From the NCBI RefSeq assembly GCF_900130035.1, contig NZ_FQXQ01000006.1, positions 1 through 64,000 on the forward strand: 64,000 nt of DNA, read 5' to 3'. A program made the position numbers and the translations under genes. Source of the stretch: Wenyingzhuangia marina (GTDB taxonomy: Bacteria > Bacteroidota > Bacteroidia > Flavobacteriales > Flavobacteriaceae). A model generated the notes under the pieces. The model was given only the letters and a program-made list of their open reading frames with translations, searched no databases and was not told the origin of the DNA. Shown here one piece after another: positions 13,355 to 20,877 of the stretch. Positions within the stretch are counted from its first letter, which is position 1. Every line of letters starts with the position of its first letter.

Positions 13355-14128
13355 TTATTTTAAATAAGATATTAATGGATGATCTTTATACTTTAAATCT
13401 TCTATAAATAATTTAGAAACTTCTGTAGCACCTAATTTTGACAAATGTGTATCATCAGATTTCCCATTTGGATAATAATCTATCTCTCCTGGCTCAAAAT
13501 GTAGGTGTAATTTTTCCGAACCTTCTACTCCGTAAGATTCTTCTAAAACCTCTGTTAAATACTGTAAATCTACCAAAGGAACATTGTACTCTTGAGCAAC
13601 TAAACGCACTACTAAAGGATAATTTCCATGAGTATCAATCAACGTTCCATACTCATTAAAATTTCTTCTTACAATAGAAGTTAACAAAATAGGATTTGCT
13701 CCTTTTTTTCTAGTTTCTTCTACAAACTTAATCAAGTTGTGTCTATATCCTGTATAAGGATTTGTATAACGATCTGGAGATTTAAACTTTTGATCATTGT
13801 GCCCAAATTCAATCAATACATAATCTCCTTTCTTTAATTTTTCATAAACTTTACTCCACCTTTTTTCACCAATAAAACTACGTGAACTTCTTCCATTTAC
13901 GGCATGGTTTTCAATCGTTACATTTTCATTAAAAAAATCGGGTAATACTTGCATCCAACCATGTTCGGGGTTGATTTCTGGGTTCTTTTTATCAGCCATA
14001 GTAGAGTCTCCAATTCCATAAATTGTAATATGTGAGGTTCCTTTACTTTCTAATTTATTTCCCTCTGATTCTTTACAAGATTGCAAAACAATAAAAAATA
14101 CTATCAAACAAATTTTATAAACTTTCAT
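13355..14128 (-). CDS. Rhamnogalacturonan acetylesterase, CE12-like SGNH hydrolase lipoprotein
   Basis: Predicted to remove O-acetyl groups from pectin, mainly rhamnogalacturonan I, so that lyases and hydrolases can act. This 257-residue lipoprotein (IVLQSC near residue 18) has the SGNH blocks in order: block I GIGDSTMAD with nucleophile Ser42, block II NGRSSRSF, block III EFGHNDQK and block V DDTHLS with the catalytic Asp and His. Its start overlaps the end of the CE8 gene by 14 nt, so the two are translationally coupled. It is the last clear enzyme gene of the leftward pectin operon. Confidence 0.9.
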   Translation of the reverse strand: MKVYKICLIVFFIVLQSCKESEGNKLESKGTSHITIYGIGDSTMADKKNPEINPEHGWMQVLPDFFNENVTIENHAVNGRSSRSFIGEKRWSKVYEKLKKGDYVLIEFGHNDQKFKSPDRYTNPYTGYRHNLIKFVEETRKKGANPILLTSIVRRNFNEYGTLIDTHGNYPLVVRLVAQEYNVPLVDLQYLTEVLEESYGVEGSEKLHLHFEPGEIDYYPNGKSDDTHLSKLGATEVSKLFIEDLKYKDHPLISYLK

Positions 14129-15050
14129 ACCATTTATGATTTATAGATTTTTTATGCTCTCCTAAAATATTTTCTCTGCTATATTTTTTAGCTGCTGATT
14201 TTTTTAATTGATGAGACCAGTTAACTCTTTTATCTGTATTAGACCCTTCTCCAAAATTTTTATATTCACCATAAAACGTAGTTTCTTCAGCCTCTTTTTT
14301 AGACCAATTATGCCACCCTTCAGGTAAAATATGCTTACCCAATTCACAATTGATAAAAATGGTTTTAGCATAAATTCTCCATGGTCTACCTAAATACATC
14401 TTTGTAACCTCTTTGGCTGCAGTTAATTTACAATTCTTAAACACAAAACCATAATTGGCATCTTGTGTAGTAGAAGCAGCTGTTATATAAGAATTTTTTT
14501 TGCTGTATATTTCACAATTTTCAAAAAGAGCAGTAGCTTCTCCAAAAATATAATCTGTAGTCCCCTCTATATAACAATCTTTATAATATTGTTTTCCTTC
14601 TCCAGAAGCATATAAAGTATCTTGATTCCCTAATAGTTTGCAATTAATAATAGCTACTCTATCAGACACCACAGACAACGCAATAGCTTGCCCTACATTT
14701 CCTGATGAATTTTCTACTGTAATATTTTTCATCACAAAATCATTGGCTTCAACCAACATTGTCCAAGTAAAAAAAGTGCTATTTCTACCTAGATCTATCT
14801 TTCCAAAAAAATCATTGTAAGTAATAATTGTTTTATCCTTACTCTCTCCTATTATAGTGATTTTTGTATTCCATTCATGGACTTTTATCTTTTCATGATA
14901 CACTCCATTTTTAACAAAAATGTTTACTCTTTTATAAGGAAAAGATTTTGAATGATTAATGGCTTCTTGAATGCTTGTATAATTTCCGCTACCATTTTTA
15001 GCTACTACAACATTATACTCATCAGTTGGTTTTAGTCTTTTTTTTTTACG
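14115..15050 (-). CDS. Pectin methylesterase (CE8) reading frame, probably the C-terminal half of a PL10-CE8 fusion
   Basis: Hydrolyses methyl esters of homogalacturonan. CE8 motifs are clear: GQAIAL, GNQDTLYA, EGTTDYIFGEA with the catalytic Asp, and LGRPWR with the conserved Arg. The frame is open from the stop at 15051-15053. The beta-helix N-terminus (YNVVVAKNGSGNYTSIQEAI, about 15 codons in) lies upstream of the first possible start, a GTG at 14901-14903. There is no ATG, no ribosome-binding site and no signal peptide. A gene call from that GTG (262 residues) would cut off part of the fold. The frame joins the end of PL10 within a run of ten A residues (minus strand, 15038-15047). One extra A, or a -1 ribosomal slip, would yield a single secreted PL10-CE8 protein of about 673 residues. 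The other options are a recent inactivating indel or a sequencing error. Confidence 0.85.
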   Translation of the reverse strand, partial: RKKKRLKPTDEYNVVVAKNGSGNYTSIQEAINHSKSFPYKRVNIFVKNGVYHEKIKVHEWNTKITIIGESKDKTIITYNDFFGKIDLGRNSTFFTWTMLVEANDFVMKNITVENSSGNVGQAIALSVVSDRVAIINCKLLGNQDTLYASGEGKQYYKDCYIEGTTDYIFGEATALFENCEIYSKKNSYITAASTTQDANYGFVFKNCKLTAAKEVTKMYLGRPWRIYAKTIFINCELGKHILPEGWHNWSKKEAEETTFYGEYKNFGEGSNTDKRVNWSHQLKKSAAKKYSRENILGEHKKSINHKWYESL

Positions 15051-16135
15051 TTATACTTGGCACTCCATCTATCATACTTTTTTATCACCTCTTTTGGCTC
15101 ATTTACATACCAAGCATATCCATTTCTACGCTCTTCTCCAATTTCTGAAATATCGTATTTTTTAATTCCATCTCTATCACAAAAGAAGGGTCTATTATTA
15201 TCTAATTCCATGAAACGAGCCCAGATAGGCTTTGCATCAGGATCTTTTACCATTGTTTTTTTACTAACCTTACCTTTATCATTATACTCTCTATCTTCTC
15301 TTAATCCAGTAATCATCACTTTTTTAAACCAAGTATGAGCAGCATTTATCGCGCTTATAACTTCTTTTGATGGATTTTCTATAGACATTAACAACAATAC
15401 AATTTTAGCAGATTCTGCTCCACTCAATGATGGTAATTCATAAGCTCTTGCTTTTGCTGGTTTAAAAGTATTTTCATCATGTTGTGCACACCATGCTGTT
15501 AATACTCCATTTTGCTTGTATTGAGTTTTTATAATACAATCCACTCCTTTATCAAACGCAACTTTAATTTTTTCTATAGTTTCTTGATCTGGTTTAATTG
15601 CATACACTCCAGAATTATCTCTAAGTTCTTTTAACAATTCCATAATATTAACCATTGAATTGTCATTATAAGTAATGTGCGTATAATATCCTTTTTTTAC
15701 AGGATAAAACTGAGGCCACCCTCCATTATCATATTGTGCTTTTAACAAATAATCTACTCCTTTTAAAAAGGCTTTTTTATAAACTTCATTTTGAGTTTGA
15801 CGATATATTTTAGACAAAAACACCATTTCTTGAATAGTAGCTCCATTGTCTGTTGTAGCTCCTTTACCAATATTTTTTAAAGATTGTAACTCTTGTTTTT
15901 TTTCTCTTGAAAGAGGCTTTTGCATCTGAATGTTTTTAGGCCATCCACCAACTTCTCTTTGATAAAGTAGTACATTTTCTGCAACCGCTATGGCTTCATC
16001 AGAACCAAACCACTCTCCATCCTCCATTCTTGTAATATTTTTCCAAGACTTTTTTAAAACTTGTGCAGAGGTTAACGTAGACACAAATAATGAAAGACAA
16101 AAAGTAATAATTGATAATTGTTTAAAATGTTTCAT
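15032..16135 (-). CDS. Pectate lyase, family PL10
   Basis: Cleaves polygalacturonate by beta-elimination, using Ca2+. The ATG at 16135 (MKHFKQLSIITFCLSLF...TSAQ) gives a normal signal peptide; an upstream start at 16180 would only lengthen the N-terminus. The mature part is an (alpha/alpha)-barrel with PL10 motifs: REVGGWPKNI, TTDNGATIQEM, NGGWPQFYP, ITYNDNSMVN, WCAQHDENT, RAYELPSLSGAES and NRPFFCDRDG. The protein is 367 residues and ends KYNVKKKD. The codons for the last three Lys form part of an A10 run, right where the CE8 frame takes over. It starts 34 nt after the PL9 stop, in the same operon. Confidence 0.93.
   Translation of the reverse strand: MKHFKQLSIITFCLSLFVSTLTSAQVLKKSWKNITRMEDGEWFGSDEAIAVAENVLLYQREVGGWPKNIQMQKPLSREKKQELQSLKNIGKGATTDNGATIQEMVFLSKIYRQTQNEVYKKAFLKGVDYLLKAQYDNGGWPQFYPVKKGYYTHITYNDNSMVNIMELLKELRDNSGVYAIKPDQETIEKIKVAFDKGVDCIIKTQYKQNGVLTAWCAQHDENTFKPAKARAYELPSLSGAESAKIVLLLMSIENPSKEVISAINAAHTWFKKVMITGLREDREYNDKGKVSKKTMVKDPDAKPIWARFMELDNNRPFFCDRDGIKKYDISEIGEERRNGYAWYVNEPKEVIKKYDRWSAKYNVKKKD
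15038..15047 (-). repeat. A10 homopolymer, putative slippery site joining PL10 and CE8
   Basis: The coding strand reads GT, ten A, GACTAA. In the PL10 frame this is GTA AAA AAA AAA GAC TAA. With a -1 shift it reads on as AAA AGA CTA AAA CCA and enters the CE8 fold without interruption. Long A runs are known sites of RNA-polymerase slippage (Thermus dnaX) and of -1 ribosomal slippage (A AAA AAG in E. coli dnaX). Which applies here cannot be decided from sequence. Confidence 0.6.
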
Positions 16136-19923: not shown

Positions 19924-20877
19924 TTATTTAAAAGTTCTATCTAAAAATTTAATAACATAGTCTATTGTTTTATCAAACCAAGGATGCAACAACCAAAATG
20001 GATGAGGAGAATTTGGAATATTTTTAACTTCACTATAAATTCTATGCTCGTCTAGTATTTTAATCATATCGTCTCTACCTGCATGAAATCTTGTGTACTG
20101 ACTATTAATAAATAATATAGGTGGTGTGTTTTTATCTGTTTGATATAAAGCTGAAGCTTCATTCCATATTTTAGGTATTTCTTCATAAGTTCCTCCTAAC
20201 CACCAGATAGCCATATCACCTTCCTTTGATTCTGGATGTTTAAAAGCCAAAATACCATCAATATCAATAATAGCTTGCACTGATGCTGAAGGCATTCCTT
20301 TTTTTATTGTTTCTAATTTCTGATGCCCATTTGTTGTTCCAACCAGTGCTGCCATTTGTCCCCCTGAAGAACATCCTAAAACCGCTACTTTAGTAGTATC
20401 TATATGGTATTTTTTTGCATTTGATTTTAGAAATTGAATGGCATTTTTAACATCAATAATTCCTGATGGATAAGTAGCTTCATCAGACAAGCGATATTCA
20501 ACCGTAAAACAAGTATATCCTTTTGAGGCTATTTTAGCTGCCATAGGCTGCATATGCTCTTTACTTCCAGACTTCCATCCTCCTCCGTGCAGTAATATTA
20601 CCGCTGGATTTAATTTTGACATATTATAAAAAGCATCTAAATGTAAATTTCTATTTTCTAAACCTTTATAAACAATGTTTTTTTTTACCAGCACATTCTT
20701 GTATTCCTTAAGCTTTACTAGAGTTATTTTAGGATATTTTTTTTTCTCTTTTATAAAAGTACTGTAGACTGTATAAGCAGTATCTTTTTTTATTTCTTGA
20801 CCCAGCATAGATTCCGTAAAAAATATGTTTAGAAGACAAAAGAAAAAAAGAAAAGATTTTAAAAAAAACATCATCAA
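19924..20877 (-). CDS. Secreted alpha/beta-hydrolase, probable pectin acetyl- or feruloyl-type esterase
   Basis: This 317-residue protein has a hydrophobic signal peptide (FLKSFLFFFCLLNIFF) and an alpha/beta-hydrolase fold of the BD-FAE/acetyl-esterase type. The oxyanion motif is LLHGGGWKSGS, the nucleophile elbow GCSSGGQMAAL, an acidic residue lies near the segment with FINSQYTRFHAGRDDM, and the His is in the C-terminal NSPHPFWLLHPW. It probably removes ester substituents from pectin oligosaccharides in the periplasm. The exact ester is unknown. It is the second gene of the operon, 92 nt after GH28 and 8 nt before DUF4861. Confidence 0.85.
   Translation of the reverse strand: MMMFFLKSFLFFFCLLNIFFTESMLGQEIKKDTAYTVYSTFIKEKKKYPKITLVKLKEYKNVLVKKNIVYKGLENRNLHLDAFYNMSKLNPAVILLHGGGWKSGSKEHMQPMAAKIASKGYTCFTVEYRLSDEATYPSGIIDVKNAIQFLKSNAKKYHIDTTKVAVLGCSSGGQMAALVGTTNGHQKLETIKKGMPSASVQAIIDIDGILAFKHPESKEGDMAIWWLGGTYEEIPKIWNEASALYQTDKNTPPILFINSQYTRFHAGRDDMIKILDEHRIYSEVKNIPNSPHPFWLLHPWFDKTIDYVIKFLDRTFK

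Follow-up and report, generated by a model that had tools for sequence, protein, structure and literature searches.

A pectate lyase gene of Wenyingzhuangia marina ends just past a run of ten adenines (A10), and a pectin methylesterase frame continues from there in the -1 frame. Does this locus encode two products from one gene, a fusion gene that has been broken, or a second enzyme translated from a start of its own? We addressed this question in the window, the whole stretch of 64,000 nucleotides analysed here, and in related loci from other genomes. The features of the locus, in window coordinates, are the following.

15035..16135, minus strand: PL10 pectate lyase, 367 aa, ATG at 16135, Pfam PF09492, with an N-terminal signal peptide recognised by eye
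15032-15034, minus strand: PL10 stop codon, three bases past the A10 run
15038..15047, minus strand: A10 slippery run in the context GT-A10-GACTAA, identical in Wenyingzhuangia gilva
15032..15050, minus strand: 19 nt shared by the PL10 frame and the CE8 frame (-1), ten of them being the A-run
14115..15038, minus strand: frame of the CE8 pectin methylesterase (Pfam PF01095), in the -1 frame with respect to PL10, 307 aa and a stop codon
14901..14903, minus strand: GTG at codon 46, the first possible start in the CE8 frame, too deep in the domain for a whole enzyme
13355..14128, minus strand: GDSL esterase, the next gene downstream, whose ATG end shares 14 nt with the end of CE8

The 3' end of PL10 reads GTA AAA AAA AAA GAC TAA on the minus strand and CE8 follows in the -1 frame, as the first-pass annotation had described. 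That annotation also placed the beginning of the CE8 frame within the A-run; the frame assignment stands and the start inside the run does not, since the frame is open from position 15050, three bases upstream of the run, to the stop at 14117-14115. The two frames overlap only at 15032..15050 and any change of frame must therefore fall there. Reading through with a -1 shift joins 366 and 307 residues into a protein of 673, in agreement with the earlier estimate. PL10 residues 59-351 cover positions 1-292 of the 292-position PF09492 profile (Pfam, E 1.7e-113), a full-length family match, and a PDB sequence match identified 1gxm and 1r76 as solved relatives. Residues 9-292 of the CE8 frame cover positions 1-295 of 298 in PF01095 (Pfam, E 3.4e-79); with the profile covered nearly end to end, the CE8 domain is complete. 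The solved pectinesterases 1xg2 and 1gq8 match CE8 by PDB sequence, and alignment with 1xg2 revealed QDTLY, D-x-IFG and LGRPW in common, which we take to be the CE8 active-site motifs. The neighbouring genes, encoding the GDSL esterase, a Pel9A-like beta-helix protein, a GH88-family protein, a DUF4861 protein and a GH28 protein, suggest a pectin cluster. The 14-nt overlap raises the separate point of possible translational coupling between CE8 and the GDSL esterase gene.

The claim that the CE8 frame lacks a start codon held up. There is no ATG, GTG or TTG in its first 45 codons, and the first to appear, the GTG at 14903, sits 131 nt beyond the PL10 stop and within the conserved CE8 domain. 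The tryptic peptide LKPTDEYNVVVAK belongs to the part of the CE8 frame before codon 46, ahead of any possible start. The frame is also without a signal peptide of its own. PL10 begins with one, as judged by eye, and is on that ground predicted to be exported. A second CE8 encoded elsewhere in the genome has its own signal peptide (by eye), and given that enzyme the loss of the CE8 studied here might be tolerable.

The arrangement was compared across PL10 loci drawn from genome collections, a sample in which genomes were taken evenly from larger groups under strict E-value cut-offs and to which one source contributed the best 80 of its 183 loci. The 237 PL10 records were reduced to 180 distinct loci by merging those with identical trimmed PL10 hits: 132 fused to CE8, 20 split from it, 27 without a CE8 close behind and one disrupted (L195). 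The last two classes were left out of the set of 152 distinct PL10+CE8 loci, which thus comprises 132 fused in one frame, 20 split at -1 and none split at +1. The split loci form a Wenyingzhuangia group (2), the F. sp. KMS group (5), the F. fluvii group (5), a Lutibacter maritimus/HS1-25 group (2) and six single rows. The arrangement is kept across species in W. gilva, the two five-genome clades and the one Lutibacter pair. Recurrence of the -1 split at A9 or A10 in 20 of 152 loci, W. gilva included, is more than chance. PL10 alone exists as a gene in its own right: four genomes (G141, G190, G820 and G831) each carry one PL10-alone gene together with one fused gene, and five of the 27 PL10-only loci are distant (38-48% identity).

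Run-length indels are a common type of mutation and a common sequencing error, which would fit a fusion gene broken by a recent indel, with CE8 decaying, or an artefact of sequencing. L195 looks like such a case: its PL10 is also interrupted upstream, as by indel error or decay, and its shift is 1 relative to the truncated PL10 hit, although CE8 is in the -1 frame relative to the last part of PL10, beside an A10. The split in the window does not resemble this. In W. gilva, at 88% DNA identity, the A10, the stop and the split are all the same; PL10 of this kind is present in only 2 of 7 Wenyingzhuangia genomes, so that conservation within the genus amounts to one pair. Between the two, CE8 has a dN/dS of 0.064 (83 synonymous and 32 non-synonymous differences), and is about as constrained as PL10 of the same pair (0.080). 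CE8 values in other split groups were 0.047-0.069 for 10 pairs of the F. sp. KMS group, 0.089-0.154 for 6 pairs of the F. fluvii group (computed on four members) and 0.18 in one Lutibacter pair, like those of fused-locus controls, where 23 of 24 pairs gave 0.039-0.168 and the remaining pair 0.295. The constraint on CE8, the same split state in W. gilva and in the two five-genome clades, and the lack of any +1 split among the 152 loci contradict the broken fusion gene that the first-pass annotation had offered as its alternative, and we regard decay or error as extremely unlikely.

Selection also reaches the part of CE8 that lies ahead of any start. In the Wenyingzhuangia pair, the 38 aligned codons of this stretch have a dN/dS of 0.076 (10 synonymous and 4 non-synonymous differences), and over nine pairs the stretch before the first possible CE8 start ranged from 0.055 to 0.341. 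Purifying selection on these codons indicates that they are very probably translated, and translation of a stretch with no standard start points to entry from PL10. A second frame without its own start and under purifying selection is found in both the window and W. gilva. These data bear on whether CE8 might be made separately, by re-initiation or from an unconventional start close to where PL10 stops. The overlap of the PL10 stop with the CE8 frame would suit such a route, as would the ATG, GTG or TTG found within 35 nt of the PL10 stop in 5 of 19 split loci (in the CE8 frame, L031 has an ATG 26 nt beyond that stop, and L026, L033, L039 and L105 have a GTG or TTG). The other 14 have none of these codons in the CE8 frame within 90 nt, the window has none before codon 46, and the pre-start stretch is constrained. 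A separately made CE8 would moreover be without a signal peptide, whereas the other CE8 of the genome has one (by eye), and 132 of the 152 loci are fused. Independent synthesis of CE8 is therefore very improbable.

The reading in which a slip at the A-run joins the two frames is consistent with where and at what run length the splits occur. At the junction of every one of the 20 split loci, which count the window and W. gilva among them, the longest run of A is A9 (7 loci) or A10 (13 loci). It lies in or touches the frame overlap in each of the 19 loci of an earlier set, which comprised all but L271 and also served for the comparisons of start codons and of RNA structure. Splits were found in 20 of the 69 loci with a run of at least nine and in none of the 83 with shorter runs. 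Set against A7-A8 alone, the comparison is 20/69 versus 0/30 (Fisher p 3e-4), a modest contrast given that longer runs also mutate more and that the rows are related. A split locus need not have one A fewer than its fused relative: Lutibacter flavus L024 is split at A9 with a fused relative, L016, at A10, whereas Mariniflexile L031 is split at A10 with a fused relative, L014, at A8.

On the tree of 152 protein rows, built with the linker left out by a quick method under LG+G4 and with some long branches, the state changed between fused and split 10 times, and the starred branches alone force 10. A smaller tree of 131 rows also gave 10 changes, 9 of them forced by starred branches. All 10 changes are in one frame, which has p 0.001 if indels are equal both ways and 0.056 with 75% deletions, so the bias could partly reflect deletion bias in A-runs. 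Taken alone, the frame bias is suggestive; together with the selection data it makes a stronger argument for decoding across the run. A9-A10 tracts are prone to slippage in replication, and fused and split states interchange over evolution, both of which would be expected if the run length in DNA differed among cells and toggled the fusion by phase variation. Random phases should then also give +1 splits, of which there were 0 in 152, and within each split clade the run length does not vary (A10 in 5/5, A9 in 5/5, and A10 in 2/2 and 2/2). Phase variation is accordingly hardly to be expected here.

Is the run itself maintained by selection? Among the linkers of an earlier set of 112 fused loci, A-runs were not enriched, with runs of at least nine in 46 against 43.3 expected from synonymous-codon resampling. 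Since the runs match expectation, lysine-rich linkers explain them and they need not be selected. Within the four split clades, the chance of three all-AAA codons was 0.45, 0.30, 0.40 and 0.67, so conservation of AAA over AAG in the runs provides weak evidence for selection on the run, and such selection is at most a possibility. A more modest account is plausible: A-runs would arise in lysine-rich linkers, indels would come after them, and slippage would make those indels tolerable.

The decoding that we propose is as follows. The mRNA read straight would give the PL10 pectate lyase alone, in exported form, and slippage at A10 would give a 673-residue PL10-CE8 lyase-methylesterase that shares the PL10 signal peptide. 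The slip would most likely be RNA polymerase adding one A, with a ribosomal -1 shift on A_AAA_AAA as a close alternative or a contributor. The sequence, its conservation, the selection on CE8 ahead of any start, the restriction of splits to one frame and to long A-runs, and the matching dnaX are observed, whereas the occurrence, level and mechanism of slippage and any benefit of having both products are inferred. Frameshifting by the ribosome, rather than slippage by the polymerase, is a less likely reading but one to be taken seriously. The direction of the split, -1 in 20 of 20 loci, agrees with it, and the run holds slippery heptamers known from PMC3711429, such as A_AAA_AAA and A_AAA_AAG. 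No conserved structure follows the run: considering nested structures only in the 70 nt after it, 17 of 19 split loci had |z| below 2 (window -0.1, W. gilva -0.6), and only L031 (-3.2) and L058 (-2.1) exceeded it. A heptamer would also suffice for the ribosome, yet there are no splits among the 30 loci at A7-A8 as opposed to 20 of 69 at A9 or more, the modest contrast described above. Insertions prevail among transcription errors in A/T runs, and deletions are rarely tied to such runs, according to the survey in PMC5574713; polymerase insertions would rescue only the -1 class. That survey states that no case of an error restoring a reading frame was detected (PMC5574713). Cassettes with 11, 9 and 7 A are reported to give 63, 40 and 10% frameshifting (PMC3711429). 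With no shared downstream structure, splits only at A9 or more and a published insertion bias, slippage by the polymerase is favoured over the ribosome, and both may act.

A second gene of the same genome is built alike. Its own dnaX (L246/L247, contig C9 near 100017) has GT-A10-G and a -1 split, as in the pectinase gene. The genome has 30 runs of at least ten A, and only at the pectinase and dnaX does a long open reading frame end just past the run while another long frame continues. The dnaX run is exactly A10 in all 24 genomes searched, which included six of the seven Wenyingzhuangia genomes. The gene is split in 6/6 Wenyingzhuangia and 11/11 Flavobacterium and in a single frame in 5/5 Lutibacter and 2/2 Mariniflexile; the latter two genera keep A10 in a single frame, so it is the coding phase that differs and the run that stays. 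If cells need tau, the long dnaX product, then an A10 of this very form is already read through in the cell studied here. The proposal of the first-pass annotation, that one gene may yield two products by slippage or a -1 frameshift, thus gains support from the sister species and the 10 state changes with every split in the same frame, and further from selection on CE8 before any start and from the dnaX split alike. We consider it highly probable that slippage at A10 yields both PL10 alone and the 673-residue PL10-CE8 from one gene.

Other A-runs were noted in the same genome. An A10 lies in an open frame with no split in L221 (glycosyltransferase-like) and L237 (a large protein with a signal-like N-terminus), both named by eye, and these are possible sites of truncating slippage. 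The two A10 runs L229 and L240 have the same flanks and, by eye, seem to lie in a terminator repeated next to a ribosomal RNA operon. Across the window (1-64000, both strands), A9 is scarce, with 11 overlapping matches in 7 runs; 100 shuffles averaged 31.3 matches, and 98 of them gave 11 or more. Within one open reading frame (19924-20877, minus strand; alpha/beta-hydrolase-like by eye), a pair of A9 runs lies at 20678-20745 with a spacing of about 60 nt, and slippage there would truncate the frame.

The decoding mechanism is already known; the pectinase would be a new gene for it, one whose evolutionary record is well replicated. Antonov et al. 2013 (PMC3711429) reported dnaX genes in two ORFs with 10 A. 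Such genes, including Thermus thermophilus dnaX as recounted there, resemble the pectinase in having a run of 9-10 A and two products with a common N-terminus, and the two-ORF form is likewise a -1 split and present in the same genome. They differ in that dnaX encodes a DNA polymerase subunit, whereas the pectinase is a predicted exported bimodular enzyme whose short form would be without the second catalytic domain. In tssM1 of Citrobacter rodentium, a long run (A11) precedes a premature stop, again as in the pectinase. Its transcripts carry 10-15 A, the frame is restored by slippage of the polymerase, and both length variants and their ratio are reported to be needed (Gueguen et al. 2014, PMC4256274). 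tssM1 is a secretion-system gene in which this was shown by experiment, whereas slippage in the pectinase is proposed from sequence; unlike tssM1, the pectinase split turns up repeatedly in an enzyme that in most loci is a plain fusion. The plain PL10-CE8 fusions of Flavobacteriaceae, such as that described for a Maribacter lineage in PMC8072126, have the same domains in the same order in pectin-related clusters, and being in one frame they give one product unless an A-run slips. Among the open-licence PMC papers listed, some dealt with PL10-CE8 fusions and others with slippage in different genes, and none reported slippage in a PL10-CE8 enzyme.

For annotation, a single-frame approach would show two genes in 20 of the 152 loci, of which the downstream one would have an uncertain start and lack a signal peptide. 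Where an intact catalytic domain continues beyond a shift of frame at an A-run, it should be tested before it is labelled a pseudogene. If slippage is confirmed, the fused and split homologues would form a replicated set in which adaptation can be tested against tolerated mutation, and a single transcript would set the dose of two pectin enzymes. Tentatively, Flavobacteriaceae may repeatedly, given 10 state changes in 152 loci, have converted a plain fusion into a gene under slippage control, by which the ratio of PL10 to PL10-CE8 would be set, with the A-run allowing moves between the fused and split states in which neither product is lost, as dnaX appears to do in the family.
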